Positions 27,689 to 62,771 of a stretch of DNA of 64,000 nt are shown one piece after another. The notes below the pieces were generated by a model. The model saw only the letters and a list, made by a program, of their open reading frames with translations. It had not been told where the DNA came from and ran no database searches. The stretch lies in assembly GCA_038831005.1 (NCBI GenBank), contig JAWBKZ010000005.1:1-64000 (forward strand), read 5' to 3'. Source of the stretch: Ignisphaera sp. Lineage in GTDB: Archaea > Thermoproteota > Thermoprotei_A > Sulfolobales > Ignisphaeraceae. How positions within the stretch are numbered: position 1 is the stretch's first letter; each line of letters opens with the position of its first letter. The translations under genes were made by a program, and so were the position numbers.

Positions 27689-27697
27689 AAGCCCCAC

Positions 27698-35624: not shown

Positions 35625-35638
35625 CTTGAGTGAAAAAA

Positions 35639-36385: not shown

Positions 36386-36402
36386 CGTAGAGTATTTCAT
36401 AG

Positions 36403-38122: not shown

Positions 38123-38162
38123 TGTGTTATACCCCATATTTTAGTAAAGAGAATTATCTGAA

Positions 38163-43871: not shown

Positions 43872-44834
43872 TTATGGAATAAGCATTCTTTTAAGCATAT
43901 TAATATTTATGAAACCTGCACTATAAGTAGTACCGGTTTTAATATTGTTTACAGTTACTACGGCTGGTGCGAATACTGATGGATCAACTTTGTATAGAAA
44001 TTCCCATCCATACATCTTTACAAGCTCTGTAAATGATTTACCATAATCTTTTGAGGCACTGCTTGGAATCTTTTCAACTATTTCCTTTAGTTTTACATCA
44101 TCTTCGTGTTCGACAAGATAGAACGTTGATCCACCATAAAGAAGCATATCATTGGTTCTACCAGTCATAATTAAAGGATCTGGATGAAGTGGTGATATAG
44201 GACATACACCAAATCCGTAGCGAATAGTCTTTATATTGTATCCAATTGTGTACATTTTGAATATCCCTGTCTCAACTACCCTTGCACTTACTTGAATAGA
44301 GCCAGCAATACTCGAGGGAGAGACTAGGACTAAGTATATGTTCTCTGGCTCTACCTTAACCTCTCTAGCCACATAATTTACCACTTCTTCAGATGGGTAC
44401 TGATTGGTCTCTAAAACAAGTACAGCCTCATTAGAGTATTCCACATATTCTATGAACTCAAATATCTTCTTCGGTTTTCTTGCTAAAGCTCTTGCAGGTC
44501 CACTACCATTAGCAAAGAATTCCCCGACTTGTATTCTCCAACCAGCTAATTGCGAAGCTATACACGCTTCTATAGGATAGTCCGTAGATACAGAGACTGC
44601 TGGTAACATAATTTCTCCAATAGATAAATTGGTCAACGTTACATTGGCTAGCCCACCAAGGCATACTCTTGAAACTATAACCCCTGCCTCAAAGCTTCCT
44701 TGAGTTTTAACACCCATATCGATAACATTTGCTTTCCCTATCTTAGATACTGATATTCTAAGTTCTTTCTCTCTATCGATAGCATCTTTAAGAATGTTTA
44801 GTGCAAGTTCATTCATAGGTTTAACCAAGTTCAT
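43872..44834 (-). CDS. mch: methenyl-H4MPT cyclohydrolase
   Basis: 320 residues. It interconverts formyl-H4MPT and methenyl-H4MPT in the cytoplasm. Family segments include GSFEAGVIVSRVCLGGLANV, IEACIASQLAGWRIQV, FFANGSGPARALARKPKKI and RYGFGVCPISPLHPDPLIM (pterin site), with full length. It starts at an ATGA overlap with the fwdC stop, after GGAGG, and is the last gene of the mtdB-ftr-fwdDB-fwdA-fwdC-mch operon. Confidence 0.95.
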   Translation of the reverse strand: MNLVKPMNELALNILKDAIDREKELRISVSKIGKANVIDMGVKTQGSFEAGVIVSRVCLGGLANVTLTNLSIGEIMLPAVSVSTDYPIEACIASQLAGWRIQVGEFFANGSGPARALARKPKKIFEFIEYVEYSNEAVLVLETNQYPSEEVVNYVAREVKVEPENIYLVLVSPSSIAGSIQVSARVVETGIFKMYTIGYNIKTIRYGFGVCPISPLHPDPLIMTGRTNDMLLYGGSTFYLVEHEDDVKLKEIVEKIPSSASKDYGKSFTELVKMYGWEFLYKVDPSVFAPAVVTVNNIKTGTTYSAGFININMLKRMLIP

Positions 44835-45679
44835 ATTGTTTCCTCCACCAATTGTTTATAGGTATCCACAATATGTTTATTATCTTCATACGATATTTGC
44901 AGAAATCCTCTACCGCCAACAAGGACATCACCTATAAATGTAGCAAAAGGTTTGAAGAAAACAACTCCTTTAACCTTTAATGAAGAAACTAGAGAATCTA
45001 TATAGAAACTAGGCAATATGGATGGAATGTGGCCGCCTATAACGATTCGTCCACCAATCATTCTTAACCCAGGATAAACACCGGAACTACCTTTGATGAT
45101 TACTGTTCCTCCCAACATATCGGTCCCTACAAGATTTCCACTACTTCCATCAACAACTATTGTTCCTCCTTTCATACCCCAACCTATTTCTGCTCCAGCA
45201 TTTCCATGTATATGTATTGTTCCTCCTTTCATACCCTTTCCAGGTCTCTCTCCATGTAGTTTACTTCCAACTCTATGCATAACATTTCCATATACCTCTA
45301 TATTACCATTAACCATTTTGGCTCCTAGATAATTTCTAACATTACCGTATATAGTTATATTTCCTCCCTTCATTTTATAGCCTATGAAGTGTCCTACATC
45401 GCCTCTTATAATTATTCTTCCGTTACTCATTTTATAACCTATGAAGCAAAGTTTATCATTACTGTTGTTTATGGTTATCTCCATGTTTTTTGTTTCTTGA
45501 GGAGCTACTGAAGGACCATCTATGTCAAATAATGTGTCTAATGTTATTGGTAAACCTCCTTCAATTATTTTCAAGTTCCTAATTTCATCTAACTTCTTGT
45601 TAACGAATTTATCTGGGGATATGTTTCTAGCATCAGTAAGAACATTAGGCTTAGATCTTAGTTTAAGTATGTAACTCAT
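44831..45679 (-). CDS. fwdC: formylmethanofuran dehydrogenase subunit C
   Basis: About 282 residues. A right-handed beta-helix built from repeats such as MKGGTIHIHGNAG, MKGGTIVVDGSSG and MLGGTVIIKGSSG, the same fold as the glutamate-synthase C-terminal domain. FwdC is the scaffold on which FwdA and FwdB sit. I chose ATG 45679, after GGGGTGAAGG; the ATG at 45700 lies inside the end of fwdA and adds seven foreign residues. The chain is close to archaeal length. Confidence 0.93.
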   Translation of the reverse strand: MSYILKLRSKPNVLTDARNISPDKFVNKKLDEIRNLKIIEGGLPITLDTLFDIDGPSVAPQETKNMEITINNSNDKLCFIGYKMSNGRIIIRGDVGHFIGYKMKGGNITIYGNVRNYLGAKMVNGNIEVYGNVMHRVGSKLHGERPGKGMKGGTIHIHGNAGAEIGWGMKGGTIVVDGSSGNLVGTDMLGGTVIIKGSSGVYPGLRMIGGRIVIGGHIPSILPSFYIDSLVSSLKVKGVVFFKPFATFIGDVLVGGRGFLQISYEDNKHIVDTYKQLVEETI

Positions 45680-45689
45680 ACCTTCACCC

Positions 45690-47411
45690 CTATTGAACAT
45701 TCACTTGCGTAGATATTTTCACAGGATTTCTGACTTCATGGTCCTTTATAATGAAGTTATCTAAAGTAACTGTATAGTATTGCTTAAACCTAGGTTCAAT
45801 GTACTTAATGAGATCTTTTTCAAGATCTTCTGGCATCTTTGGATTAATGTAGAAGGTCTTTCCATGAATTGTTTTGACTATTTCTCCATCCTTTACAACT
45901 ATTTCTCCATCTTTTATAACAATCCATGCACGGCTAAAAGCTTTGATAAGTGCTTCATAGTTCTTGGATATATCTACCTCGTGTGGATTAATATCGTATA
46001 TAGCGATATCAGCATCAGCACCTATACCTAAGTGACCCTTTATTTTATCAAGACCAAGTAGTTTAGCAGGTGAGGCTCGGGTCATTACAGCTATATCGTA
46101 TAGATTATATTCTCTATCTATTGATGGAAGTATAGATTTTCTAAGAGCTCTCTGATTTACCTCTTTCATTGTATCTTCTCTAGCCTTTTTACTCACAAGC
46201 CACGCAAATATTTTTGGATAGTCGAAGAATGTGCCCGCATTTGGATGATCTGTTGTTATGAATATTCTCCAAGGATCTCTAGCTAATAAAGCGATTTCTA
46301 GACCTATAACCCATTGAACTGTATTGACGTAGCTTTTCTTTTTGTATCTATAAGGAACAATACCAGCAGCTGCATCAACTTCCGTATCCATGCTCGCCCA
46401 TTTCCATCGCGTAAGATGATATAGCACATACTCAAAGGGTGCATCTGCAGTCATAGTCGTTGCAGGTCTATCGAGAATTACTTGTCCTAAGTCTAACGTT
46501 ATATAGGGATTTCTATTGAGTTCTTTTGCTATATCCTCTCCTCCACTTTCAAGAGTACTCCAAGAATCACCTTTATATCCCGCAAACTGGGTGTGAGTGA
46601 TATGCATTACAGGTCCATCACTTAATTTTGTTAATTCATCAGTAAGAGACATAGTCTTTAATGTTGTTTCATAGTTACCTGGATAACCAAGTCTATTACA
46701 ATGTACATGGACTTTATGCGGTATATTCAAGTATTGTGCAGCTTCAGCAACACTCTTAATAATGTCTCTTGGTGTTAGACCGTATTCTGGTATCTCTTCA
46801 TCTATATCTACTCCCCTACCTTTTAGAACCCATGAAATGTCTGAACCAGGATCAACAAGCTTAAGGGCATAGGTTTTTGTAGCAGACAAAAGCCATGCAA
46901 GGTACGCCACTATCTGATCTTTTGATCCTTCCTTGATCAGATCTAGAGCAAGCCAGTTAGAGTCTACTAGAACGTAAGTAGCTTTATCTATTATGGGTAT
47001 GGCATCTAGTTCATGATGCGTATGTCTAGTTTTTATAGGAGGTGTAGCAGGTTCAACTACAAATGTATATCCTAGACGTGCGTATCCATATCCTATCTTA
47101 AAAACATTTGGAACTGTAAGTCCTGTTTCAGCTCTTCTATATGGTAGCTTATGTGGTCTATTCGTTAGATAATGATCTTCAGGTCTTATAAGCCTTCCGA
47201 TATTAACCTTCGGTCCAGCTATATGGCTATGGATATCTATACCTCCAGCCATAACTACTTTATTTTTAGCATCTATTACGATTGTCTTACTAGCCTCTAC
47301 CTCACTAGCTTCAACTATCTTTCCATCTTTAATAGCGATATCCATAGGCTCTCCATTAACACCGTTTAGCGGATCATAAACGATTCCATTTTTGATCAAT
47401 ATCTGAACCAT
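45690..47411 (-). CDS. fwdA: formylmethanofuran dehydrogenase subunit A (amidohydrolase)
   Basis: 573 residues. FwdA condenses formate with methanofuran (or hydrolyses formyl-methanofuran) at a binuclear zinc site. Ligands are visible: H61 and H63 in GGIDIHSHIAGPKVN, the carboxylated Lys in YALKLVDPGSD, His in HVHCNRLGYPGN, MHITHTQFAGYKGD and the Asp of ITTDHPNAGTFFDYP. The set is complete, so the enzyme should be active. Two bases separate it from the fwdDB stop. Confidence 0.95.
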   Translation of the reverse strand: MVQILIKNGIVYDPLNGVNGEPMDIAIKDGKIVEASEVEASKTIVIDAKNKVVMAGGIDIHSHIAGPKVNIGRLIRPEDHYLTNRPHKLPYRRAETGLTVPNVFKIGYGYARLGYTFVVEPATPPIKTRHTHHELDAIPIIDKATYVLVDSNWLALDLIKEGSKDQIVAYLAWLLSATKTYALKLVDPGSDISWVLKGRGVDIDEEIPEYGLTPRDIIKSVAEAAQYLNIPHKVHVHCNRLGYPGNYETTLKTMSLTDELTKLSDGPVMHITHTQFAGYKGDSWSTLESGGEDIAKELNRNPYITLDLGQVILDRPATTMTADAPFEYVLYHLTRWKWASMDTEVDAAAGIVPYRYKKKSYVNTVQWVIGLEIALLARDPWRIFITTDHPNAGTFFDYPKIFAWLVSKKAREDTMKEVNQRALRKSILPSIDREYNLYDIAVMTRASPAKLLGLDKIKGHLGIGADADIAIYDINPHEVDISKNYEALIKAFSRAWIVIKDGEIVVKDGEIVKTIHGKTFYINPKMPEDLEKDLIKYIEPRFKQYYTVTLDNFIIKDHEVRNPVKISTQVNVQ

Positions 47412-47413
47412 TA

Positions 47414-49150
47414 TTACACCTTCTTCAACTCTTTAACTTTATTTAGAAGTAATTCCAAAAGGTCTTTATCACATAACACATTAGGTGGAGGATCAACAAG
47501 CTTCTTCATGTATATGGGTACGCCATCCATTCTGTAAGCTGTACCCTCACACTCTATACCTACCAAGCCTGCGGGAAGTATCACATCTGCAAAAGCTGTT
47601 GTGAGAGACCATTTAGCGTCTATGACGATTACAGGAATTTTGGAAAGATGCTCGACAGCTTTTCTTGGAAGATGTGCAGCTGGATCACTAGCTACTATTA
47701 ATGCAGCATCAACATCACCATATGTTAATAGATCTGGTGCAGAAGTGACTCCAACAATCATTCGCGGAAATCCTCTAGCAAAATCAACTGCAAATGGGTA
47801 ACCAGTATTCCACAGCAAAACATGATTTGCACCAGTAACATTGTAGTGTCCACGCATGGGAAGTAATACAAATTTAGTCCATTCATTAAGGTCTTGGATA
47901 AGCCTTATAGCTTCTTCTATATTCTTATATCTAGCTTCATTCTGTGTTAAACCCATGCCAAAGAATATAACTCCGTATCTAGCACTTCTCATTATATCTG
48001 CAAGCTCTAGCACCTTCTCTCTAGGAACGCCTGCGATAACAGGATTCTCTATCTCTAGATCTCTTACAGCCATCCGTAAAGCCGTTATAAGCTCTAGATC
48101 TTTTCCAGGTTCAATCTGTATGAATATGTCAGCAAGATCTGCGGTTAAAGTTTTTCTGACATCTATTACAACAATTTTTCTCTGTCTGCGTCCTTCAGAA
48201 AACCTTCCCTTAGCCATCACCAGTCTTGTTATGTGATTCATATGTGCTTCTCTTGGGTTACATCCCCAGAACACAACTAAATCGGATAGATGGAGTATTG
48301 GAGCAAAGGTTGAAGTTACAACACCAACCTCTTGTTCTGCTAGAACAGTAGGGCCATGACAAACCACAGATGTGTTATCTATAACCCCATGAAGTATCTC
48401 TGCAAGCTCTACAGCCTTCTCTATAGCCTCTACACATGTATTTGAGAGACCAAATATTAGTGGGTATTTCGATGAAATTAGTATTTCCGCAGCTCTTTCT
48501 ATAGCCTTCTCTACATCAGTTTCTATCAACTCATTATCAATTCTTATATAGGGTTTAATTATTCGATGTTTGTGATAATTCAAAAATTTTGATATTGATA
48601 TTGCACATCCACCGATATTTCTAACTATTTTATTACCCTCAATCTCGATTTTGAGATAGTCGCAAAGATCTCCACAGAATGGACATACAACATTTTCTTC
48701 TACACGTTTATCTCCAATCCTTATCTCTTTGTCCGCTAGAGGCACCTTTATTATTTTTGCATTTAGAGATCTGAGAAGATCATTTAGGGTTGTTACAGGC
48801 TCTTCTGTGGGCTCTATTACGACTCTTGTACTCTTTAGATATGGAATGCCAGTACCATCGGTATCTGGATTAACTATGAAGTTTGCCCAGGGACCCATAG
48901 GTATAAAGATGGAGCCTCTACGAATTCTATCGCTTATTCTTACTGGAAGGACTATAGAACCATATTCACTCGATATCTTTACTCTATTGGTGATGCCTAA
49001 GAACTTCGCATCATCAGGATTCATCTCGACATATGCAATAGATTTTATATATTGCTCAGACCACTTACCTTCACTTTCCATTGAAACTCCTTGCATAATA
49101 GACCTGCCAATATTTAAAACAAATAGAGATGGTGAAACACTTTGTTGCAT
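47414..49150 (-). CDS. fwdB: FwdD-FwdB fusion, formate-dehydrogenase-like subunit of formylmethanofuran dehydrogenase
   Basis: 578 residues in two parts. Residues 1-125 are the molybdopterin-dinucleotide-binding FwdD domain (SIMQGVSMESEGKWSEQYIK, YVEMNPDDAKFLGITNRVKI). From about 150 on lies FwdB: a [4Fe-4S] site at C156, C159, C163 and C182 (VVCPFCGDLCDYL, GGCAIS), and the Mo/W ligand with its catalytic partner at C264-H265 (VVCHGPTVLAEQE), as in formate dehydrogenases. It reduces CO2 to formate for transfer to methanofuran by FwdA, or the reverse. FwdD and FwdB are more often separate genes. No FwdE, F, G or H gene accompanies it. GGTGATAA precedes the ATG. Confidence 0.9.
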   Translation of the reverse strand: MQQSVSPSLFVLNIGRSIMQGVSMESEGKWSEQYIKSIAYVEMNPDDAKFLGITNRVKISSEYGSIVLPVRISDRIRRGSIFIPMGPWANFIVNPDTDGTGIPYLKSTRVVIEPTEEPVTTLNDLLRSLNAKIIKVPLADKEIRIGDKRVEENVVCPFCGDLCDYLKIEIEGNKIVRNIGGCAISISKFLNYHKHRIIKPYIRIDNELIETDVEKAIERAAEILISSKYPLIFGLSNTCVEAIEKAVELAEILHGVIDNTSVVCHGPTVLAEQEVGVVTSTFAPILHLSDLVVFWGCNPREAHMNHITRLVMAKGRFSEGRRQRKIVVIDVRKTLTADLADIFIQIEPGKDLELITALRMAVRDLEIENPVIAGVPREKVLELADIMRSARYGVIFFGMGLTQNEARYKNIEEAIRLIQDLNEWTKFVLLPMRGHYNVTGANHVLLWNTGYPFAVDFARGFPRMIVGVTSAPDLLTYGDVDAALIVASDPAAHLPRKAVEHLSKIPVIVIDAKWSLTTAFADVILPAGLVGIECEGTAYRMDGVPIYMKKLVDPPPNVLCDKDLLELLLNKVKELKKV

Positions 49151-49164
49151 AATTTATCACCAAC

Positions 49165-50106
49165 TTACACACGGATGTCTATATTCTTTACTATTTCTAG
49201 AGCATCTCTCAGATACAGATGGTAAGGTCCCAGTTTACCCCCATAGTTACCAGCATCAATCTTTACGACACCAGGAACCGAGGCTGCAGCCTTTATCGCT
49301 ATACCCATCGCTTTAAGTACGTACTCCTTCCTAAGTCCGTTTATGACTATTTCAAAAACGCTGTTAACTTCTTGAGGAATTTTTGTATCCTTAACCATTT
49401 CTTTTAATGTAGGACAGTAAAGATGATTCGTGGTAGCTCTTAATTTAGGGTATTTAAGAGATCCTACCTTTGAACCTGATCTAACGATGCCTCCCGGAAA
49501 TGGTGTTATAATGCCTCTTGCGTACTTTCTAATAGCTTTTACAGATTTTTCGGCTGCTTTGAGACCGGATTCAAGATCTTTAGCTAATATTAGTATATTA
49601 CCACCAGCTACAGCTTTAATAACACCAAAACTATCCTCAATAATGAATTCTCCCTCCATAACAGGTATTCTCCATACTTTTCTTCCATACATTGTATCTT
49701 CTTTTTCAAAACCATCACCAAATTTCGCTAAAGCTTTACCTATACTGATTCTTCTCTTCATTTTTGGTAATCCATCGAATGCTGCTGTCGTTGGTGCGGT
49801 AAGAATGCATTGCCCTACTCGTGTAAGTGTAACTATCTTCAGATTAGCTGGATCAGTATGGTATATCTGTATTGCTACTCCAGGTCTTGAATCAGGTGTT
49901 ATCTTAGGTGAAAGTAGCGTCTCTATACCGCATTCTCCCGGAGAAGCAATAACTGAGGTGCCGAATCCTGTCGCAACTTTAGCTGCTATAAGTGCCCATT
50001 TATGGTTTATAGCTGTAACGATTATTCGTGTAGCATACATAGGAAATGCTTCTGCAAATGTGTCTTCAACTACTACTGAGCCAAGTTTAAGTGTCAATAC
50101 ATACAC
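49165..50106 (-). CDS. ftr: formylmethanofuran:H4MPT formyltransferase
   Basis: 313 residues. It moves the formyl group between methanofuran and H4MPT. Typical segments are VEDTFAEAFPMYATRIIVTA, SPGECGIETLLSPKITPDSR, RPGVAIQIYH and the C-terminal AMGIAIKAAASVPGVVKIDA. Full length and no missing region. It follows mtdB by 13 bases and precedes fwdDB by 14 in one operon, the same functional block (Ftr with FwdA/B/C-like subunits) found in the bacterial formyltransferase/hydrolase complex. Confidence 0.95.
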   Translation of the reverse strand: MYVLTLKLGSVVVEDTFAEAFPMYATRIIVTAINHKWALIAAKVATGFGTSVIASPGECGIETLLSPKITPDSRPGVAIQIYHTDPANLKIVTLTRVGQCILTAPTTAAFDGLPKMKRRISIGKALAKFGDGFEKEDTMYGRKVWRIPVMEGEFIIEDSFGVIKAVAGGNILILAKDLESGLKAAEKSVKAIRKYARGIITPFPGGIVRSGSKVGSLKYPKLRATTNHLYCPTLKEMVKDTKIPQEVNSVFEIVINGLRKEYVLKAMGIAIKAAASVPGVVKIDAGNYGGKLGPYHLYLRDALEIVKNIDIRV

Positions 50107-50119
50107 CGAATTTATTTAA

Positions 50120-51034
50120 TTACTTGCTTACGAGCTGTTTTGCTATTTCCCATGCAATTCTATAATCAAATATACCTTTAGGTACTTCAGCAACACGTTT
50201 AAATAGTTCAGCAAGGATCTTGTTCTTTAAGGAGCCTATCCTTAAAGCTCCAACACCATAAACTCCCGGAAGGATCTCTTTATCTTCATCATTTGGTTCT
50301 AGTCCTTCTATACCAGTTGGTGGTACAGCATTAACATCTGCAACTATTTTAACCTTTTTACCGCATTTCTTAAGTGTTTCTAGACTCAGTAATCGGATAC
50401 CAGCAGCACCTGAAGCAAGTATTAGGTCAGCTTCTTCAATACCTTTACATATCTCTTCTTGAGTATGAGCCTTAATACCTTCAACGACATTAAGACCTAC
50501 CTCTTTATTTACTCTATCCGCAATAGCTTTTGCTTTTTCAATGCTACGTGAAGTCACGTATACACTTGCACCTTCGAGACCAAACATAACAGCTGCAGCA
50601 AAACCTACAGGACCTGTTCCAGCAAGTATTACAACTTTATTGTTTTTGAAGTCGCTAAAGCCGTGTTTTATAGATAGCTGGTACATCTTGGCTACAGCTG
50701 CAGCAGCAGTAGTGTTTGAACCACGTGGATCAACTATTACTGCAAATTCAAAAGGTGGAAACATAGTTTTTTTAACTATTTCAACTATTTTTTCAACTTT
50801 TTCAACATCATAACCCCCTATAAACATCTTTGTGTATTTAATGCCCTTAGATCCTCTTGGAAACATGGCATCCTGTACTATTCTTTGAACATCTTCCGGC
50901 TCAACATTACTGTACAAGAGTATATGAGCTTCAGGAAACAGATCTATAACCATCAATGGTTCAAATGGACTCACGTGCTTATCTGTATCTAGAAACAGTA
51001 TGGCTAATTTTGGCTGGTTAAATGAACTAGACAT
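50120..51034 (-). CDS. mtdB: NAD(P)-dependent methylene-H4MPT dehydrogenase (MtdA/MtdB family)
   Basis: 304 residues. It interconverts methylene- and methenyl-H4MPT with NAD(P) as hydride carrier, unlike the F420-dependent Mtd of methanogens. The catalytic N-domain has LAILFLDTDKHVSPFEPLMV and DPRGSNTTAAAAVAKMY; the Rossmann loop is VVILAGTGPVGFAAAVMF, followed by VTSRS, whose Ser-Arg suggests NADP. DVNAVPPTGIEGL near residue 225 is an MtdB hallmark, while the GSNTTAAA and AGTGPVG motifs are closer to MtdA, so I call only the family. ATG follows AAGGTG. First gene of the C1 operon. Confidence 0.9.
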   Translation of the reverse strand: MSSSFNQPKLAILFLDTDKHVSPFEPLMVIDLFPEAHILLYSNVEPEDVQRIVQDAMFPRGSKGIKYTKMFIGGYDVEKVEKIVEIVKKTMFPPFEFAVIVDPRGSNTTAAAAVAKMYQLSIKHGFSDFKNNKVVILAGTGPVGFAAAVMFGLEGASVYVTSRSIEKAKAIADRVNKEVGLNVVEGIKAHTQEEICKGIEEADLILASGAAGIRLLSLETLKKCGKKVKIVADVNAVPPTGIEGLEPNDEDKEILPGVYGVGALRIGSLKNKILAELFKRVAEVPKGIFDYRIAWEIAKQLVSK

Positions 51035-51181
51035 ATGTACACCTTGGAATTATTATGTAAAATCTATTTAAAAATTTTTTACATGTATAAGCAATCCTAT
51101 ATGGAGATAATATTTAAATAACTAAATATATAATCAACTGATATAATACCGTTATTATGAGTTTTTGCAATAGGCTTAGAA

Positions 51182-51715
51182 TTAATCTGAATAGTGGAAC
51201 TGCTTTTCACTAAGCTTAAACGCTCCAACCAATCTATAGAGTGTTCTTTCTCGTGATCTCTTTACAATTTCATCGGGGTTTCCCCATATGATTGCATTAG
51301 TTGGGCATGTAGCAATACATCCCGGTTCCAGATCTTCAGATCGTAGTTTAGAGCATAGATCGCACTTAATTACGTATCCTATAGGAGTTAGTTCTGGTAT
51401 ACCAAATGGACATGCAATTATACATGAAGTACAACCTATACATCTAGTAGTTCTATCAATTACTGCACCACTTTTATCAAATATTAGTGCATTGGTTGGA
51501 CATACTGTTACGCATGGTGCTTTAACGCAATGGAAACACGATATAGGTTTACTTAAACCACTTTCAATTTCATACAATTTTATAAATGCATATTCACTAT
51601 TTAGGAATTTACACACTTCTTCACAGGTATAACAGCCTATACACTTATCATATAGTATGAACCTTCTAACTCTAATTTCTAATCCTGGAGCAGTTCCTTT
51701 ATCTGGGTTAGACAT
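51182..51715 (-). CDS. HycB/CooF-like ferredoxin with four [4Fe-4S] clusters
   Basis: About 177 residues carrying 16 cysteines in four sets: CIGCYTCEEVC, CFHCVKAPCVTVC, CIGCTSCIIAC, and CDLC followed eleven residues later by CIATC. This is the electron-wire type found as HycB, CooF or DMSO-reductase B subunits. ATG 51715 is preceded by AAGGTAA; an ATG at 51730 is the alternative. It is the last gene of the hydrogenase run, right after a GltD-like flavoprotein gene and 148 bases before mtdB. It could pass electrons between the flavoprotein, the hydrogenase and the Fwd enzyme. Confidence 0.85.
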   Translation of the reverse strand: MSNPDKGTAPGLEIRVRRFILYDKCIGCYTCEEVCKFLNSEYAFIKLYEIESGLSKPISCFHCVKAPCVTVCPTNALIFDKSGAVIDRTTRCIGCTSCIIACPFGIPELTPIGYVIKCDLCSKLRSEDLEPGCIATCPTNAIIWGNPDEIVKRSRERTLYRLVGAFKLSEKQFHYSD

Positions 51716-51737
51716 ACTAATTACCTTCATTAGATAT

Positions 51738-52811: not shown

Positions 52812-52817
52812 ACAGAT

Positions 52818-53590: not shown

Positions 53591-53597
53591 AGGCGTT

Positions 53598-54095
53598 TCA
53601 TCTCGTGGTTGTCGTTCTTAATAATGATTCAATTCTTCTACAATTTGGACACAACTCCAACAGTTCTTCTGGAAGTTCTTTAACAAGGTTCTTTACTTTA
53701 TTCATTAATTTTCTTGTAACAAATTTTTTGCCACATTTTCTACATATGCTAAGGCTGTGTTGTACATCGCTATAAAGTTCGTAGATCTGATCTGAAGCTA
53801 GTTCAAATTCTTTTGTAATCTTTATAGCTTTCTCAGGACATGTATCGGCACACATACCACAGAAGATACATCTTCCCACAAAATATCTCAGTATTAATGT
53901 CTCTCCTTCTTGAATAAAGCTTAATGCTTTAGGTGGACATATTCGTGTACATGCACCACACCCTATACATTTATCTGGATCAACCTCTATAGCGCCTCTG
54001 AATGACTCTGTAACTAGAGGTCTATCATAGGGATACATTACTGTAACTGTACCTATTTTAGCTGAAATAGGTAGTATCTTAAGGAATTGAACCAT
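53598..54095 (-). CDS. hydrogenase ferredoxin subunit (MbhN/HyfH/NuoI-like)
   Basis: About 165 residues. Two [4Fe-4S] motifs, CIGCGACTRICPPKAL and CIFCGMCADTCPEKAI, conduct electrons to the small subunit. The C-terminal part has a further pair of C-x2-C motifs (CRKCGKKFVTR and LCPNCRRIE) as in HycF/HyfH, likely a zinc site. I chose ATG 54095 with GGTGA directly upstream; a GTG at 54104 sits in that site. It follows the large-subunit gene. Confidence 0.9.
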   Translation of the reverse strand: MVQFLKILPISAKIGTVTVMYPYDRPLVTESFRGAIEVDPDKCIGCGACTRICPPKALSFIQEGETLILRYFVGRCIFCGMCADTCPEKAIKITKEFELASDQIYELYSDVQHSLSICRKCGKKFVTRKLMNKVKNLVKELPEELLELCPNCRRIESLLRTTTTR

Positions 54096-54100
54096 ATTCT

Positions 54101-55813
54101 TCACCTAACAGCTTCTAACTTTTTTCTAGACAAAACATACAGAGGTACACCCTCTATCTTGCCCGTCTTAATGTTTATAATTAGTGCTCGATCAGTACAT
54201 GAAAAACAAGGATCAATACTAGCTATGGTAATAGGAGCATCAGCTAGTTCTATTTCTCTAAGCATTATTGGTACTGCAGGAAGATTTTGATATGTGGGAG
54301 CACGTACCCTCCATCTATATGGAGAGTAAATACCTGTTATAACCATATGTATAACCTCTCCTCGTGGAGCTTCAACAGATCCTATACCTATCCTATGTGG
54401 CTCGGGATCCCAACTTTCTACAGCTATAGCGCCTTTTGGAAGCTTATCTAGAAGTTGTCTCAATATGTCTATACTTTCAAAGATTTCATCAATACGTACT
54501 AATGCTCGAGCCATATTATCACATTCATCTTGAACAGCTACATCGAAGTGTATGTACCTATATGCAGCATAAGGATAATCCTTCCTTATATCTCGAGGTA
54601 TACCAGAACCCCTAACAGTTGGACCTACTAGTGAAAGTGCGTGTGCTTCTGATTTAGGCAGAATACCTGTTCCCTTAAGTCGTGCTTTAACCTGTGGAAC
54701 AGATACAGCTATATCGATAAATGTCTTGAATTCCTTCTCAACATTCTTCAGTACTTCTAGAGATTTCCTAATTTTGTCTTCATCAATATCTCTTCTGACT
54801 CCTCCAACAATATTGATTCCATAAGTCTTCCTACTACCTGTTAAAAGTTCTGCTAAAATCATTACCTGTTCCCTGATTCTCCACGAGTGCATGAAACCTG
54901 TATCATAACCTAGGAGGTGGAAGGCTACACCAAGCCATAACAAATGGCTATGTAGCCTCTCTAGCTCAAGTACTATAGATCGTATGTATTGCGCTCTTTC
55001 AGGTACATCAATTTGAAGAGCCTGTTCAACTGCTTGACAATAAGATGTAGAATGTACGAAACCACATATACCACAGATCCTTTCAGCTAGAAAAGGTACT
55101 TGATTGTACTTCATTGATTCTCCAAGTTTCTCTATACCTCTATGCACCATGAATCCTACGTACCTAACATCAACAATTTTTTCACCTCTTACGTATAGTT
55201 CAAAATACTCAGGCTCATGTAATGCTGGATGATAAGGACCTATAGGGATAATTGTTACTGCTTCAGCTTCAACTTCTTTAGCACGCTCAATAACTTTTGG
55301 TGTATAGAGTTTCATTAGATCTTGAATAGCGTAATCCTTTCTTAAGGGATATACATCAGTAGGCCAATCATCTGGTAATACAAATCTATACTGATTCCTT
55401 CCAGCAAATTTTATGCCCATGAGATCATGGGCCTCTCTTTCGTACCAATCAACTGCTTTAACTAAATTAACTAGTGTGGGCACAATAAGATCGTTTTCTG
55501 TTAGTGGAACTTCAATAATAACACTCTTGCTTAATGTATCTATTCCAAAAACGTAATAAAGCTTAAAGAAACCGTTAATGGTCCTTTCATCAGATGAAAC
55601 CATAGTCCTCAGATAAACATCCTTAATCTTCAGTAACTTCTCAATAACATTGTAGAGATTATTCTTCAGTGTTACAACTCTTAGAAAATCCGTCCCTCTT
55701 TCCTCAATTCTTGCCATGCCCTGTATACTTTGTATAAATTCGTTTAAGTAAACCTCATTGAACTTACTGTTAGCATCAACGTTATAGAGTTTGCTCAAAT
55801 ATGTATACACCAA
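54101..55813 (-). CDS. group 4 [NiFe] hydrogenase large subunit, NuoC-NuoD fusion (HycE/HyfG-like)
   Basis: 570 residues. The N-terminal third is a NuoC-like 30-kDa domain (VDWYEREAHDLMGIKFAGR then RFVLPDDWP). The rest is the catalytic chain with NiFe ligands C247 and C250 in RICGICGFVH, and C536 and C539 in DPCFSCTDRALI. All four cysteines are present, so it is a true hydrogenase and not a complex I subunit. The NuoC-NuoD fusion is the HycE layout; in Pyrococcus Mbh these are two proteins. It starts at GTG 55813, overlapping the NuoH-like gene by 32 bases; a TTG at 55801 is possible. Confidence 0.92.
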   Translation of the reverse strand: MVYTYLSKLYNVDANSKFNEVYLNEFIQSIQGMARIEERGTDFLRVVTLKNNLYNVIEKLLKIKDVYLRTMVSSDERTINGFFKLYYVFGIDTLSKSVIIEVPLTENDLIVPTLVNLVKAVDWYEREAHDLMGIKFAGRNQYRFVLPDDWPTDVYPLRKDYAIQDLMKLYTPKVIERAKEVEAEAVTIIPIGPYHPALHEPEYFELYVRGEKIVDVRYVGFMVHRGIEKLGESMKYNQVPFLAERICGICGFVHSTSYCQAVEQALQIDVPERAQYIRSIVLELERLHSHLLWLGVAFHLLGYDTGFMHSWRIREQVMILAELLTGSRKTYGINIVGGVRRDIDEDKIRKSLEVLKNVEKEFKTFIDIAVSVPQVKARLKGTGILPKSEAHALSLVGPTVRGSGIPRDIRKDYPYAAYRYIHFDVAVQDECDNMARALVRIDEIFESIDILRQLLDKLPKGAIAVESWDPEPHRIGIGSVEAPRGEVIHMVITGIYSPYRWRVRAPTYQNLPAVPIMLREIELADAPITIASIDPCFSCTDRALIINIKTGKIEGVPLYVLSRKKLEAVR

Positions 55814-56690
55814 TCCAGATAATTATGGCTAGTGAGTATATTAGTATTAAGGTTTTGAAAGCTAAATCAATTCTCGATCTTCCGAGAATTGTACTAACTA
55901 TAGAGAAAACCATATAGATTATTGCTGCAAATATGTGAAGAAGAAGCAGATGTAAACTCTGGTTACCTACGTTCAATCCAAACATTAACATAATTAAAGC
56001 TACAGGTATAGAGATAAGTAAATATTTTTCAAGAAGATGGTTATATATGTATAATCCCAATATAGGACCTGATAGCTCTATTATTGAACCTGAAGCTAGT
56101 TCAGGTTCAGCTTCATGTAAATCATATGGAAGTCTCCTACTAGATACATACACAGCTATCAATAGAGGTATAAAGGATAGTATAAAAAGGGATAGACTAG
56201 CTGAGCTATTAACATAACGTGACACCATAGTTAATACCAAGAAGGCTGCAAAGCCAACTTCATTAGCCACATCTATAGAGATAATCCTAAATGTGCCTAT
56301 GATTGAGAAAGGATTTGCTGAAGATATGTATAGTAGTAGATGTAGTGCATGTATAGATATCACAATCACAAGAAATAAGGCAGCATAGGGATAAAATGAT
56401 AATAGAGATGTGGTAGATACTATAGAAAGTGATATGACTATGGCTAGAAATAGTGTTAAGGTTAACGATATAGATAGAGGTAGAATTAGATATCTAACTT
56501 TTGTAGACATAATTAATTCCTTAGACATTAATTTAAGTATATCATACCATGTCTGAAAAATTGTTGGAGGACCATACCTAGTCTGTATATTGGCCTTAAT
56601 CTTACGCTCTATACCATCAAGTATAGGTGGTATAAATATATACAAACATACAGACAGAAATGTGGTTAAGATCGTTATTAGCTCCACCAA
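55782..56690 (-). CDS. hydrogenase membrane anchor (MbhM/HycD/NuoH-like)
   Basis: 302 residues, about eight membrane helices. Family motifs are the N-terminal ILDGIERKIKANIQTRYGPP and the loop SSRRLPYDLHEAEPELASGS, with the acidic residues that line the quinone-site-like cavity at the membrane/peripheral arm boundary. It links the hydrogenase arm to the ion-pumping arm. GTG start overlaps the preceding small gene by 13 bases. Confidence 0.9.
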   Translation of the reverse strand: MVELITILTTFLSVCLYIFIPPILDGIERKIKANIQTRYGPPTIFQTWYDILKLMSKELIMSTKVRYLILPLSISLTLTLFLAIVISLSIVSTTSLLSFYPYAALFLVIVISIHALHLLLYISSANPFSIIGTFRIISIDVANEVGFAAFLVLTMVSRYVNSSASLSLFILSFIPLLIAVYVSSRRLPYDLHEAEPELASGSIIELSGPILGLYIYNHLLEKYLLISIPVALIMLMFGLNVGNQSLHLLLLHIFAAIIYMVFSIVSTILGRSRIDLAFKTLILIYSLAIIIWIGVYIFEQTL

Positions 56691-56995
56691 GCGACCACCA
56701 ATACTGTGACTATGGCGAGTACGGAAAGTAGTTCTAAGAATAGAGATTGAGTTGAAAGAGAATCTTCTAGAGAGCCTTGGATTTTTTGAAGTGTTATAGC
56801 TATAGCTTTAGCTATATCAATGACCTTGTCCTCTTTTGATAATGCCTTATGTACATATACGAAGATGTTTACTAGTTTACTGAATTTCGTTTTACTATCA
56901 GCTATTATCTTACTTCCTTTACGTTTCAATGTTTCAGTAATTCTCTCTATTATAGATGCGACTGTATAATTCAAGGTAGTTCTCCTCCAAGCCAT
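56678..56995 (-). CDS. small helical protein with C-terminal membrane anchor
   Basis: 105 residues. A charged helical region (1-80) is followed by one membrane helix at the end ([20 protein letters not shown]). It overlaps the antiporter-like gene upstream by 25 bases and the NuoH-like gene downstream by 13, so it is surely expressed. By position between antiporter and NuoH-like subunits it corresponds to MbhI of Pyrococcus, the linker of the two arms, but I see no sequence similarity. An alternative TTG start at 56974 would overlap only the stop codon. Confidence 0.6.
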
Positions 56996-58488
56996 ATAGT
57001 ATCGTGAGTTATGTGCTTAACTCGTGAGTATACATACATTGTTACTATAGTGAATAACGTTAATGCTAATATTAACGAAATAATTACATCCATAGTTATG
57101 GGTATGTTAAGAATCAGAGGCATCAAAGGTGATAGTACTAAACTTAATATAGCTGGTATATATTCCCATTTCACTAACTGTTCTTCAGATACATGGACAA
57201 CGTCTATTTTCTTTGTTTTCCAAGATCCCCAGTAAACCGTCAAATACTTTATGCTGTATATTATTGCTAGAGACAAAGCCATTACTATAGAAACAAGTAG
57301 AAATATCCCCCATAGAGTATTAAATGTTATGAACTCTATCAACAATACGAACAATAAAAGTTTAGCTATAAATCCAAGTGTAGGCGGTATACCCATTAGC
57401 GATAGAGCTGAAATTAATGCTGATGTAGATGCTTTTGGAGCTATTTTCACTAAAAAACCTAACCTATCTATATCTCTTGTATGAGCAATTACTTCAACTG
57501 TTCCTGCATTGAGAAATAATGCAGATTTAAATAATGAATGAGCTAATGCTAGAGATATTGACGTGCTATATGCTAGTACACTATTTGTCAATTTGTAGAT
57601 CATAAGAGAGATCATCATTAGTCCTGTATTTTCTATTGTGCTATATGCTAAGATCCTCTTTATATCTATTTGAACTAAAGCCATAAATCCTCCATATATA
57701 GCTGAAAGGATCCCCAAACCAGTAAGAATCGCTGGTGTAATCTGGGTATCGATTATAGGTAGGGTTCTCATTACACCATATATCCCCATCTTAACCATCA
57801 CACCTGAAAGAAGAGCTGATGCAGGTGCTGGCGCAAGTGAATGTGCATCAGGTAGCCAAAAGTGTAAAGGAATTATAGCTGCTTTAGCTGAAAAACCTAA
57901 TATAGTTATTAAAGATATATGTAGAGGCATTATATTTGTCACCAATGGAATATCAGTTAAATACGTAGATAATGCATTTAGGAATCCTCTATTTAAGGAT
58001 AAATAGGCTAAAAAACTCATTAAAGCTAGATCTGCTGGTACCATTGATACTACTAAATATCTTAAACCTGCTCTAAATGTCTCAGTTCTTATTTCGTACA
58101 CTATTGTGAAAAAACCTATGATTTCGGAGAGAAACCAGAAGATGATGAATAAAGCAATAGTGGGTGCTAGAAAAGTCAAGTAGATTGATAGAGCAAAGAG
58201 ATCTATAAGTATATGTAAGTCTGAGGATCTGTATTTCTTTAATTCATATGTATCACTATACATTGATGCAGAAAAGCCTATAGCTAATGCTAGGCATGAG
58301 AATACTAATGAAGGTGTATCTATGAAATCTTGGCCATATGTTACTAGAGTCATGAGAACTAATCCTACATATCCTATGAATCTCAATTTTCTAATCTTTT
58401 TGAAGCTTCCAACAATAACTATAAAGATTAGTGTCACTATAATAAGTATGAAATAAATGGTTTTGAAAGATTCTTCAACAACTATCAA
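56971..58488 (-). CDS. antiporter-like subunit (NuoN/MrpD/HyfB family), second copy
   Basis: 505 residues and about 14 helices. The Proton_antipo_M core is recognised by [39 protein letters not shown] and the broken helix [15 protein letters not shown] with its Lys/His residues. It starts at TTG 58488 after GGGTGATAA, and that TTG overlaps the previous stop. Two antiporter-like subunits in one hydrogenase operon allow more than one ion channel per complex, an arrangement like the Mrp-linked formate/CO hydrogenases of Thermococcales. Confidence 0.88.
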
Positions 58489-60131
58489 GGTTTATCACCC
58501 AATATTCTGGCAATATCTTCAACTATTTTTATATACTGCTTAACACCATCTATTGAAGAGACATGAATATTGTTGCTGTATAGAAATGTGTAAGGTTCTC
58601 CCTGAATAGATATCATTCCCAGAATCATTAATCCTATTGCCATGATCATGCACACTATTGTTGCTATGGTTACGTCAACTCTTTTCTTGTTCTCTTTTGG
58701 TTTCTGAAGGAAAAGAGCATATATAAGTTTAAAATAACCTATAGCAGTAATACCTGATATTACTATTAATGCTATTGCATAATAAATGAAATTTGCACTT
58801 ATTAGTGCAAGAAAAAGTATATATTTGCTGAAGAAGCCTGCTAAAGGGGCAATACCTAGAAGACTCAATAAACCAATAACTATAGCTATAGACAAGTATG
58901 GATACATTGTTCCATAACCATATATATCGTTAATTTTTCTACTGTTTGCTATACTAGCTAGAGTTCCTAATCCCATAAAAACCATTGATTCTCCTAGAGC
59001 ATGTGTAATGCTGTGAAAGATTATTCCTGTTAAGGTTAACGCTATAGTTACTTCGGTTTGACTTGATGTTAAACCAGCCATAGCCATGAACATAAGCCCT
59101 ATATGACTTATTGTACTATAGGATAAAAGTCTCTTAATATCTTTTTGAATGGTCATTATGAGAGCTCCAAGAAGTCCTGTTATAAAACCAAGTACACTTA
59201 GAACATATAGTATAAAGTCTCTAAAAGATACTCCCCATAACCTAAACATCAGAGTTGAGCCGTAAGGTGTAAATATTGTTAAAAATAGCCTCAAAATACC
59301 ATAGATTCCAACCTTATCAACTATGCCTGCAAAGATTGCTGAAGCTGGTGTAGGTGCTTCAGTATATGCGCTTGGAAGCCAGTAATTATTAGGAAAGAGA
59401 CCTGCTTCGAAAGTTAGTGCCCAGATCATGAATGCTGTAGCTGTGGCTGAAGCTAACACAATGTTTCCTATACAGATATTATCAGTACAGTTTCCACTCC
59501 AGTGACTCATTATCGAATTATAGTTGTGAGCTTTAGCTGAGAGATCGGCAATATTTAGTGTTCCAAAAGATAGGTATAGAAAGCTTACGCCAAAGAGAAA
59601 GAATGTCGTTGCTAAAGAACCTATAAATGCATAACTTGCTGAAGCTTCTATAGCCCACTTCCTTTTCTTAAAGAATGAAACAAGAGCGTATGAAGATAGT
59701 GCTAGGACTTCGAGCATAACGAAGAAATTGAATATATCACCAGTATAGATGCAACCTGTTATACCTGTAACTAAGAGTAAAAACAGAAGTGTATGCCATA
59801 CATAATCTCTAATTACTTTATAGTACCAGAAAGTATATAGTGAGACTAGGAAAAATATTGTACATGCAAGTAATCCGTATACAGCATTAATGAAATCAGC
59901 TACATAAACTATGCCCATAGGTGGAGGCCAGCCACCAAACGCATAGACAATAGCTCCGTTTTGCAAAACATTCTTTAGAACAATCAATGACAATATAAGC
60001 ATCATGATTGCAGCAGAAAGCTGTAGAAACGAATAAATATATCTGTTTCTTGTAACTAAAGCAAGAAGGGGTATAATGAGAGCTATAATAGTTGGTACTA
60101 ATGGTATTAATGCAAGTTCATGATTAAACAA
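58485..60131 (-). CDS. mrpD: MrpD-like antiporter subunit (MbhH type)
   Basis: 548 residues, about 14 helices. Core motifs are the helix-7/8 region [40 protein letters not shown] and the broken helix [15 protein letters not shown]. It follows the MrpE gene in the order usual for MrpCDE-like blocks. TTG start after GTGATG. It is expected to carry the Na+ or H+ path coupled to hydrogenase turnover. Confidence 0.88.
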
Positions 60132-60141
60132 TTTTCATCAC

Positions 60142-60648
60142 TTAATCAAATATCTTTTTGGCATAGCTATCGAAAACTTGCGCAATATTCTTGTAACATT
60201 CTAAAGGATCAGTAGTTGTAACATTTATCCAATTAACATACGCTAAACCCTTCTCTTTATCTACATCTACAACAACTGTTCCAGGAGTATTAGTAATTGA
60301 TATAGACACAAGGGTCCAAGCATAATCACTTTTAGAACCTATTGGAACTCTAACTATCCCAGGCCTTATAGACATTCTAGGCGAGAGACCTAATTTAATT
60401 ACATGTATATGGGCCTTCATCTCATCTATTAAGAAGTAACGTAAGATGTATACAATTAGATATAGAAATCTCTTAATATCCAAGCTTTTTCTCCAGTCCT
60501 CTACTAACATTGGAGATAGTATTGAACCAATCACTATGGCTACAACTGCACCACTCACAAGATCATATACCTTTAGAGAACCTGTATATATTATGTATAT
60601 GGTAAAGGCGATAATAGTTGGCGCTATAGCTTTAAGCACTCTCTTCAA
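60142..60648 (-). CDS. mrpE: MrpE-like subunit
   Basis: 168 residues. Two or three N-terminal membrane helices, then the conserved soluble part with LVSISITNTPGTVVVDVD, diagnostic for the MrpE/MnhE family (SITLTPGT-type motif). TTG start with GGTGATGATAG upstream, overlapping the end of mrpC. Structural subunit of the Mrp antiporter module of the hydrogenase. Confidence 0.85.
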   Translation of the reverse strand: MKRVLKAIAPTIIAFTIYIIYTGSLKVYDLVSGAVVAIVIGSILSPMLVEDWRKSLDIKRFLYLIVYILRYFLIDEMKAHIHVIKLGLSPRMSIRPGIVRVPIGSKSDYAWTLVSISITNTPGTVVVDVDKEKGLAYVNWINVTTTDPLECYKNIAQVFDSYAKKIFD

Positions 60649-61057
60649 CTATCATCACCTTTTTCATACTACCTATTTCATCTACGTCAATTGTAGAGAA
60701 ATGCCTATAGAGATGAATTATCATTATAGCTAAAAATGTGTTAACAGCTAAACCTATGACTATAGCTGTTAGAACTAGCGCTTGAGGTAATGGATCTACA
60801 GATCTCATCAGGAACTGCTTCAGATCTTCATCTGTAGGTGACCAATTGAGTAATACTGGAGGTTGTAATAATAATCCTGGTCTCCATAATCTATATCCAC
60901 CAAGTATTAGAAAGACATTTATAGAGTCTTGAAGAATAGTTAAAGCTATGAATTTCTTAATTAGGTTAGGTTTAGATATAACTCCATAGATACATAATGC
61001 TATATTCACATAAAGCGAAGCTATGGTGGCTATGTACATAGCAACCCTAATATCCAT
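60632..61057 (-). CDS. mrpC: MrpC-like subunit
   Basis: About 141 residues, three helices of the NuoK/MrpC type. The family segment PLPQALVLTAIVIGLAVNTF, with the conserved LTAIVI helix, is clear. ATG 61057 is preceded directly by GGTGA; a GTG at 61066 is the alternative. The loop before the last helix is longer than in bacterial MrpC. Confidence 0.85.
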   Translation of the reverse strand: MDIRVAMYIATIASLYVNIALCIYGVISKPNLIKKFIALTILQDSINVFLILGGYRLWRPGLLLQPPVLLNWSPTDEDLKQFLMRSVDPLPQALVLTAIVIGLAVNTFLAIMIIHLYRHFSTIDVDEIGSMKKVMIVEESA

Positions 61058-61856
61058 ATTCTTCACCTAGGATAACCTCTTTGGATACTTCTTCGCTATA
61101 GAGAATTATATTGAAAGCTAGATAGAATGCCATAAAGACTGCTAATCCCTCAAATAGGTTTAAAAACCATAGAGAACCACCCATAGGTACATCGAATATG
61201 TATGTGGGATATGAGAAGTTTGTGGAACGTTTATACTGGTTTTGGAATATAAAAGCATTACCAAAACCTAGAATTATTGGTATTAATGCTGTTAATGCTA
61301 TACCTAATATAGCTAGATTTCTGAAAGTTACAACTTTACTGTACGATAATCTAGAGGTATCGACTAAAAGTCTTGAGAAGACTATTATTACAATAACTGG
61401 CGCTACAGCCATTATAGCACCTCCTTGGAATCCTCCACCAGGAGTTAGCATTCCGTGAAGGACTGTAGAAGCGCCAACTACCAAGATTCCTAGAAGCGAT
61501 ATAGCTGTAACCCTTTTTACAACAATACTTAATCCTTCACCTTTCGAAATATCACGCTTACCTAGTATCTCTCTATACAGGATTAGACAACTTACTATAG
61601 CTGTATAGAAAACTATCGTTTCATAGAATGTATCCAAACCTCTATAGTCCCACACAATAGCTGCAACGGCTTCAGGTGATGCTGTCCATAGATCTTTGAT
61701 GTAGATATTGAATGTTGAGTTGAGATAAGCTTTAGCCAAGGGTCTTATATCTCCATGAGGTATAGGTCCAATGCCTCCTAGTAGTGTTGGTATTAATATT
61801 ACCAACATGATTACTATCAAAAGTGTAATAAATATCATCTCTCTATGTTTTTTCAT
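61047..61856 (-). CDS. mrpB: MbhE-MbhF (MrpA C-terminus + MrpB) fusion subunit
   Basis: 269 residues. The first part (1-105) resembles MbhE, the last piece of MrpA (WDYRGLDTFYETIVFYTAI). The second part is MrpB with the motif VLHGMLTPGGGFQGGAIMAV. In Pyrococcus Mbh these are two genes. It overlaps the DUF4040 gene by 14 bases and mrpC by 10. ATG is preceded by GGTGGGAAG. Part of the proton/sodium channel module. Confidence 0.82.
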   Translation of the reverse strand: MKKHREMIFITLLIVIMLVILIPTLLGGIGPIPHGDIRPLAKAYLNSTFNIYIKDLWTASPEAVAAIVWDYRGLDTFYETIVFYTAIVSCLILYREILGKRDISKGEGLSIVVKRVTAISLLGILVVGASTVLHGMLTPGGGFQGGAIMAVAPVIVIIVFSRLLVDTSRLSYSKVVTFRNLAILGIALTALIPIILGFGNAFIFQNQYKRSTNFSYPTYIFDVPMGGSLWFLNLFEGLAVFMAFYLAFNIILYSEEVSKEVILGEEYGY

Positions 61857-62100
61857 ATCTTCCCACCTTTTTAATCAGTACAATAGATATTAATGGTAGA
61901 AGTCCTACAGATATAGCTATGTAGACAAGTACTATATCTGGTGCCATTAAGAGAAAGAGAAGAAAAGCGTAGAGAGTACTCTGTACTGCTGAAAACATTA
62001 TAGCTTTTAGAAGATCCTTCGAAACTATTGCTAAAGCTACAAACAAAACAGAGATCATCGAGATGAGCCCTATGATTATGAATATTGTCTCCTCTAACAT
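61843..62100 (-). CDS. MbhD-like subunit (DUF4040, part of MrpA)
   Basis: 85 residues in three helices with the SKDLLKAIMFSAVQSTLYAF segment typical of the DUF4040 domain of MrpA and MbhD. The NuoL-like N-terminal part of MrpA is absent, as in Mbh hydrogenases. AGGTGAG precedes the ATG; it overlaps mrpG by seven bases. Confidence 0.8.
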   Translation of the reverse strand: MLEETIFIIIGLISMISVLFVALAIVSKDLLKAIMFSAVQSTLYAFLLFLLMAPDIVLVYIAISVGLLPLISIVLIKKVGRYEKT

Positions 62101-62477
62101 GTTTTCTCACCTTTATCTTCAGCTAGATGATCTACGTAACAAGGATCAAGAACAACTGTCTTAGATCTATGAGCCGCTCTAGAGATGGCATGAGTACCAG
62201 CTCCACCAAGGATAAATGTAAAGAATGCTGCAACAAATGCTCCTCCAGCTAAATACCATCTGTGGTCACCTAGAAAGGGAGAGCCTAATGCTATCAGTCC
62301 AGCACCTATCATTGGTACAACAGCTCCACCAATGCTTCCAATAGTTAATGCATGCAATCTTACATAGAAATTGGGGAATCTTATCATAAGAATTGCTGCT
62401 ATAATATCACATAAAAGACCTATAGCCACCATTATTTGCCCAATTATGACTAATATTAGGTTGAGCGTCTCTTGCAT
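62094..62477 (-). CDS. mrpG: MrpG-like subunit
   Basis: 127 residues, three helices. MrpG features are IRFPNFYVRLHALTIGSIGG followed by two hydrophobic segments and the FILGGAGTHAISRAAHRS tail (conserved His). Small membrane subunit of the Mrp module; sits directly after mrpF. Confidence 0.85.
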   Translation of the reverse strand: MQETLNLILVIIGQIMVAIGLLCDIIAAILMIRFPNFYVRLHALTIGSIGGAVVPMIGAGLIALGSPFLGDHRWYLAGGAFVAAFFTFILGGAGTHAISRAAHRSKTVVLDPCYVDHLAEDKGEKTC

Positions 62478-62480
62478 AAT

Positions 62481-62771
62481 TCAGTCGCCTAGCTCTTTAT
62501 GTTCTAGATACTTAGCCACATATATATCGAGAGCATAAATCCATAGAGTTAAAACAATAGCACATATGATTAGAATAGGGGATCTAAAGAGCACGCTTAA
62601 TACAATGAAGAAGGCGGCAAGATCGTAACCCAAGGCATCAATAGCTATTACCATATCTGGTAATGTTGGTCCTTTAATTATTCTAACTAAGTATAGTGAA
62701 AACGAAGTTATGTATATAGTTATAGAAAACATAAGAAATGAAGAAATCCAGGACTCTATATCGATAACCAT
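62481..62771 (-). CDS. mrpF: MrpF-like subunit
   Basis: 96 residues, three helices with IIKGPTLPDMVIAIDALGYD, the conserved G-P-x2-x-D-R/V-x2-A-x-D motif of MrpF/MnhF. First gene of the 16-gene hydrogenase run. A TATA-like GTTAAATAGT lies 30-39 bases upstream (62801-62810). Confidence 0.85.
   Translation of the reverse strand: MVIDIESWISSFLMFSITIYITSFSLYLVRIIKGPTLPDMVIAIDALGYDLAAFFIVLSVLFRSPILIICAIVLTLWIYALDIYVAKYLEHKELGD

Follow-up and report, generated by a model that had tools for sequence, protein, structure and literature searches.

The gene run at positions 43872-62771 of the 64,000-nucleotide stretch of DNA from the heat-loving archaeon Ignisphaera sp. analysed here (the window) is likely to comprise two units standing side by side: an NADP(H)-linked, ion-moving hydrogenase and an H4MPT operon with its own promoter, which would meet only through the NADP(H) pool. 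The hydrogenase is probably not wired directly into the C1 genes. All genes of the run lie on the minus strand and are read from 62771 to 43872, in the order 14-gene Mrp-linked group 4 [NiFe] hydrogenase, GltD-like flavoprotein, four-cluster HycB and mtdB-ftr-fwdDB-fwdA-fwdC-mch. The genes and order given in an initial annotation of this DNA were recovered with strong family matches (Pfam and others), and its count of 16 hydrogenase genes holds only if GltD and HycB are included, 14 preceding GltD. Two of the genes are fusions: fwdD and fwdB form one gene, and the 30+49 kDa hydrogenase large subunit is likewise a single fused protein. The window's genome (G000) measures 1.70 Mb and is 99.5% complete; the best named relatives of its FwdDB are found in Desulfurococcaceae/Ignisphaera assemblies. 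The same run through Fwd is present in genome G074 ('Bin S23'; locus L022), with 68-82% protein identity for most genes, and because the run recurs there, the gene order is not due to chance.

The run opens with an Mrp-type antiporter module (58485..62771). Pfam matches identified MbhD (61843-62100; MbhD), MnhB (61047-61856; MnhB), MnhC (60632-61066; Oxidored_q2), MnhE (60142-60648; MNHE) and an MnhD/MbhH-like subunit (58485-60131; Proton_antipo_M); MnhF (62481-62771) and MnhG (62094-62477) were identified solely from where they lie and how long they are, and tblastn places orthologues of both at the equivalent spot in relatives. A second Proton_antipo_M membrane subunit (MbhH1-like; 56971..58488; PF00361), a small protein without a Pfam match (orf105; 56678..56995), whose tblastn matches occupy the equivalent position in G034, G044 and G061, and a NuoH-like membrane anchor subunit (55782..56690; NADHdh) lead to the [NiFe] large subunit HydL (54101..55813). 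HydL is HycE-like, carries both CxxC Ni-binding motifs (RICGIC...DPCFSC) and has E. coli HycE as its best solved match (441 bits); the [NiFe] ligand motifs were intact in every complete large subunit checked. It is followed by a NuoI/HycF-like two-cluster ferredoxin subunit (HydFe; 53598..54104; Fer4), by the MbhJ/HycG-like small subunit HydS (53075..53590; Oxidored_q6; 148 bits to MbhJ and 129 bits to HycG) and, between HydS and GltD, by orf86 (52818..53078), a conserved protein without a Pfam match. Orthologues of orf86 with conserved Cys and RH residues occur in seven other hydrogenase loci, some of them in genomes where FwdDB has no match; judged by its sequence distribution, orf86 belongs with the hydrogenase and not with Fwd. 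On contig C3 the same genome encodes a separate hydrogenase of the Mbh type, in which both Ni-ligand motifs are present (L122, G000:C3:27150).

Next in the run stand a GltD/SudA-like FAD flavoprotein without an N-terminal Fe-S domain (51738..52811), which has GGGPAG and YRRT (NADPH-type) motifs, and a HycB-like 4x[4Fe-4S] protein with 16 Cys (51182..51730). The best solved matches of GltD include NfnA- and NfnI-type bifurcating subunits, and those of HycB are HDCR HycB3 and E. coli HycB. Across relatives, YRRT in GltD and the 16 Cys of HycB are conserved; the GltD fragment of G061 has no visible motif. The HycB/HycE-type matches bear out the initial annotation's view of HycB as the Fe-S electron-input protein of an FHL-type hydrogenase, and homology together with the YRRT motif agrees with its view of GltD as the likely site of NAD(P)H entry. 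As an electron-input pair, GltD and HycB most likely handle NADPH.

The distribution of the pair was followed in 197 genomes of the order, with counts that depend on the cut-offs used (E <= 1e-75 for GltD and E <= 1e-140 for HydL). GltD was detected in 77 genomes, HydL in 68, both in 59 and FwdDB in 16; co-occurrence of GltD with HydL (59 of the 77 GltD genomes) gave a Fisher p of about 2e-24, kinship ignored. GltD lies within 8 kb of HydL in 43 of the 197 genomes, and 33 of these 43 have no FwdDB match. A lack of matches counts for little when the assembly is incomplete, as some of the 33 are; G041, G065, G077 and G089, however, are single contigs listed at 99-100% completeness. According to the gene maps, GltD-HycB sits between antiporter and hydrogenase genes in G013, G024, G052, G097 and G023, upstream of the hydrogenase genes in G003, G124, G149, G153, G134 and G041, and at the operon end in G034, G061, G012, G115, G067, G043, G085 and G159. 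In the last six of these the hydrogenase-GltD-HycB run stops at HycB and unrelated genes come next, for example an inositol-phosphatase-like gene, a secretion ATPase or an HD-domain gene. GltD and HycB also occur joined in a single reading frame, about 535-550 aa long (G034:C4:2577-4148, G044:C3, G024:C84 and G124:C2). The hydrogenase unit is thus conserved without the H4MPT unit, and the comparison supports GltD and HycB as hydrogenase parts. The earlier proposal that HycB wires FwdDB to the hydrogenase is not supported: in 33 genomes that gave no FwdDB match the pair goes with the hydrogenase, and it often lies inside the hydrogenase operon.

The junction between the two operons points the same way. 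Neighbouring genes of the run overlap or lie no more than 14 bp apart, with the hycB-mtdB gap of 147 bp (51035..51181) as the sole exception; in G074 this gap is about 64 bp. A TATA-like element, TTTTTAAA, lies 40 bp before the mtdB start, and TTTTTAA occurs 40-50 bp before mtdB in G000, G074, G034 and G013, in the last two of which no hydrogenase precedes mtdB; since the motif was picked after the sequences were in view, its shuffle frequencies are only indicative. We infer that the H4MPT operon has its own promoter.

Among the 10 genomes that have both the GltD-linked hydrogenase and FwdDB, the two are adjacent only in G000 and G074. Of the conserved order that the initial annotation proposed to look for, the hydrogenase-GltD-HycB part proved widespread, and the full run through Fwd was seen only in G000 and G074. 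In G034, the closest hydrogenase relative with Fwd, the two operons are on different contigs. In trees of HydL, FwdDB and CdhA the genomes G000, G074 and G034 group closely, and G013 joins G034 in the FwdDB and CdhA trees; support for the branching order is only moderate. The common ancestor of this group may already have had the adjacency, which would then have been lost in G034 and G013. An interpretation of the adjacency as a selected functional union was weakened by the C1 operon standing without the hydrogenase in G034 and G013. Order-wide, HydL is found in 14 of 16 genomes with FwdDB versus 54 of 181 without, a correlation that close kinship can explain. A second one-carbon association is seen in G044 and G061, where the hydrogenase-HycB unit is followed by CODH/ACS about 2-3 kb on. 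Taken together, genome comparison suggests that the Fwd link is a neighbourhood effect. Upstream of the hydrogenase, the window has an ApbC/Mrp-type ATPase gene (62879-63673), whose counterpart in G013 (L089:10755-11519) is directly upstream of mtdB, as if the hydrogenase block had been inserted or lost between the ATPase gene and mtdB.

Complexes of this kind have been described. A 2010 paper reported Desulfurococcaceae complexes in which a SudA/GltD homologue replaces FdhA and read them as NADPH-linked, the GltD/HycB pair forming an NADPH dehydrogenase module, with sudA in place of fdhA in operons of T. aggregans (Tagg_0050-0059), D. kamchatkensis and S. marinus (PMC3035292). S. marinus has no COG0243 molybdo-oxidoreductases at all (PMC2678158), an independent indication that this type of complex can do without an FDH or Fwd partner. 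The window operon, with hydrogenase, GltD and HycB and without fdhA, is of the same SudA/GltD-linked FHL type. It shares with the 'Dehydrogenase-linked MBX complex' (PMC3035292) an FHL-like core, SudA/GltD for fdhA, an FdhB/HycB-like small subunit and, as in S. marinus, Mrp genes, but differs from it in that the H4MPT/Fwd operon comes immediately after it in the window and G074. HycE-, HycG-, HycF- and HycB-like subunits are common to formate hydrogenlyase (E. coli FHL-1; Thermococcus litoralis fdh-mhy, PMC2432063), whereas the window has GltD instead of fdhA/fdhF, no FdhA or FdhF being encoded with its hydrogenase cluster, and FwdDB, apparently encoded in an operon of its own, is the sole adjacent FDH-like protein. 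Pyrococcus furiosus Mbh has a similar Mrp-type module and its MbhJ is closest to the window small subunit; in contrast to Mbh, the window large subunit is a fused HycE-type protein and the input is GltD-HycB. From homology and the YRRT motif we infer that the window hydrogenase is probably NADPH-dependent, a reading already published for related operons; a direct Fwd-hydrogenase lyase is not supported by the related genomes.

We propose that in this FHL-type, Mrp-linked group 4 [NiFe] hydrogenase the formate dehydrogenase has been replaced by the GltD/SudA-like flavoprotein. The electron route would run, in either direction, from NADP(H) via the GltD-bound FAD, the four [4Fe-4S] clusters in HycB and the clusters of HydFe and HydS to the [NiFe] site, and the flow would be coupled to ion movement through the Mrp module. 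When H2 donates electrons, the hydrogenase would provide MtdB with NADPH; when H2 is scarce, it could get rid of NADPH by evolving H2. MtdB, Ftr, FwdDB-A-C and Mch would interconvert CO2 and methylene-H4MPT inside an archaeal Wood-Ljungdahl island with CODH/ACS, and FwdDB would swap electrons with soluble ferredoxin. The hydrogenase and the H4MPT operon would meet only through the NADP(H) pool common to MtdB and GltD. Of the couplings initially suggested, only the indirect one, from MtdB to hydrogen via NADP(H) and GltD, stays plausible. Given the adjacency in G000 and G074, perhaps inherited from a common ancestor, the two units may nevertheless be functionally linked by more than the NADP pool.

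The C1 operon begins with an MtdB-type NAD(P)-dependent methylene-H4MPT dehydrogenase (50120..51034; Mpt_N), whose best solved match is the M. extorquens-type NADP-dependent MtdA. It continues with the formylmethanofuran:H4MPT formyltransferase Ftr (49165..50106), the FwdD-FwdB fusion (47414..49150; TIGR03129), which is the Mo/W formate dehydrogenase-like subunit of formylmethanofuran dehydrogenase, the amidohydrolase subunit FwdA (45690..47411; TIGR03121), the GXGXG subunit FwdC (44831..45700) and the methenyl-H4MPT cyclohydrolase Mch (43872..44834), with Ftr, FwdC and Mch assigned by family matches. The alignment with M. wolfei FwdB spans the 4Fe-4S cysteines (CPFCGDLC) and the Cys-His pair (VCHGP), in agreement with the earlier claim of an intact Cys-His metal site, and that of FwdA with solved FwdA spans the HxH, Lys, His and Asp metal-site positions; we take the aligned residues to be the catalytic ligands of the M. 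wolfei structure. Active-site residues of the hydrogenase, FwdA and FwdB all look intact. The operon resembles Fwd/Fmd in its A, B, C and D parts and conserved active-site residues, and differs in the fusion of fwdD to fwdB and in that no FwdF/G polyferredoxin gene was found in G000. It also resembles the bacterial Fhc/MtdB pathway of methylotrophs, with an MtdB-Mch-Ftr-Fwd-like set and NADP for F420. FhcB is a B subunit without the Mo/W-ligand Cys and the Fe-S cysteines, whereas the window FwdDB retains CPFCGDLC and VCHGP.

The polyferredoxin search was aimed at FwdF and FwdG. No frame of G000 outside the hydrogenase/HycB cluster had more than one Fer4_7 match, several such matches being confined to the hydrogenase ferredoxin and HycB frames; the genome encodes small free ferredoxins. 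The initial annotation had named a complete fwdE/F/G/H set elsewhere in the genome as evidence against its reading; no FwdF/G set turned up. At most FwdDB-fusion loci of non-methanogens (Thermofilaceae, Hecatellales, Bathyarchaeota and others) there is no Fe-S ORF and no HycB nearby, and the two methanogen loci examined (L031, L038) encode an eight-motif polyferredoxin and an 80-aa two-motif protein. FwdF/G are thus generally missing from such non-methanogen loci, and their absence alone does not call for HycB as a substitute; the idea that HycB stands in for FwdF/G was rejected because FwdDB loci in other genomes have neither. The initial claim that FwdB is the sole FDH-like catalytic chain is true within the cluster and not genome-wide: contig C1 encodes a second FwdDB, 42% identical, together with FwdC (G000:C1:28959-31464; L085:6960-9465), with no FwdA and no Fe-S gene at the locus, and a 653-aa molybdopterin oxidoreductase (L086:7474-9432), possibly a formate dehydrogenase-like enzyme, near a 405-aa radical-SAM-like protein. 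The FwdDB locus of G002 has only such a FwdDB-FwdC pair.

These data bear on the formylmethanofuran-hydrogen lyase that the initial annotation had put forward, in which FwdDB would dock on HycB like FdhF and formylmethanofuran oxidation or synthesis would be wired directly to the hydrogenase and ion pump. The adjoining operons of G000 and G074, the FDH-like nature of FwdB, the resemblance of HycB to its FHL and HDCR counterparts and the missing FwdF/G are in line with such a lyase. We nevertheless consider it very unlikely: the GltD-HycB pair accompanies the hydrogenase in 33 genomes that gave no FwdDB match, the two operons of G034 stand on different contigs, neither FwdF/G nor a nearby HycB is seen at the FwdDB-fusion loci of Thermofilaceae, Hecatellales and Bathyarchaeota, a separate promoter-like element precedes mtdB, and the input to HycB is already given by GltD. 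It is just as improbable that in the G000/G074 lineage FwdDB has secondarily docked on HycB, so that formylmethanofuran, NADP(H) and H2 would all be coupled to the ion gradient in a single three-way complex.

Two further readings concern the hydrogenase itself. It might confurcate electrons, with GltD, an NfnL relative, and HycB merging those of NADPH and reduced ferredoxin into H2 and Fwd supplying the ferredoxin; the NfnA-/NfnI-type bifurcating subunits among the best solved matches of GltD and the ferredoxin-like HydFe of the operon fit this idea. Such a mechanism appears unlikely, since GltD lacks the N-terminal Fe-S domain of NfnL, the operon has no small NfnS-like partner and the Mrp module offers an alternative energy input. 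Alternatively, the complex could oxidise NADPH with sulfur or polysulfide as acceptor in place of producing H2, an option raised for T. aggregans (PMC3035292). The intact [NiFe] ligand motifs of complete large subunits favour H2 chemistry, although they are compatible with sulfur too, and we hold sulfur reduction to be highly doubtful.

The window also contains a complete CODH/ACS operon on the minus strand (20006..30982), with a CooC-type ATPase (30188-30982), CdhA, CdhB, CdhC, CdhD, CdhE, an RACo activator and a second CooC-type ATPase (20006-20782); orthologous operons are present in G034, G013, G074 and G044. Genes at 31304..38855, namely an ATP-grasp protein (31304-32494, plus strand), F420-ligase-like, RimK-like, amino-acid kinase, Hydantoinase_A and His_biosynth genes and MfnB (4-HFC-P synthase; 35630-36385, plus strand), probably make methanofuran/H4MPT cofactors. 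FdhD/NarQ (43001..43711, plus strand) is a maturation factor expected for Mo/W formate dehydrogenase-type enzymes. A corrinoid protein (42163-42846) and a URO-D-type methyltransferase (40883-42193), both on the minus strand and assigned by family matches, possibly form a methyl donor route into CODH/ACS.

Archaeal Wood-Ljungdahl genes in G000 thus include CODH/ACS, MtdB, Mch, Ftr and Fwd. F420-Mer (TIGR03555) had no match in this genome, and MetF was rejected as the methylene-H4MPT reductase, PF02219 being present in 0 of 20 genomes. F420-Mer was found only in G044, G061, G149 and G157, all with an F420-type Mtd in the Fwd operon; the Mtd of G149 is Pfam-confirmed, and those of G044, G061 and G157 share 71-93% identity with it. 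Across 10 relatives in which the operon has either MtdB or Mtd, kinship ignored, all six MtdB operons went without a Mer match and all four Mtd operons with Mer. CdhC was detected in 13 of 20 relatives tested and in neither G124 nor G153, which have MtdB-Fwd genes. In the part of the open-access literature covered, no report of a Wood-Ljungdahl pathway in the Ignisphaera-like group surfaced; a published survey took Ignisphaera bin S23, which has a contig matching G074, to be a fermentative heterotroph, and its pathway screen used CODH/ACS and the folate enzyme Fhs (PMC8579995). The island would represent an Ignisphaera-like Desulfurococcales Wood-Ljungdahl set in which NADP-type MtdB replaces F420-Mtd, without Mer. 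It offers a testable model, in which an NADPH-linked energy-converting hydrogenase partners an H4MPT pathway freed from F420 at the methylene step. In G061 (L099:8726-10349), genes for HycB and an FrhB-type F420 protein adjoin Ftr, and gene size and order indicate the same HycB-FrhB-Ftr arrangement in G044 (L100).
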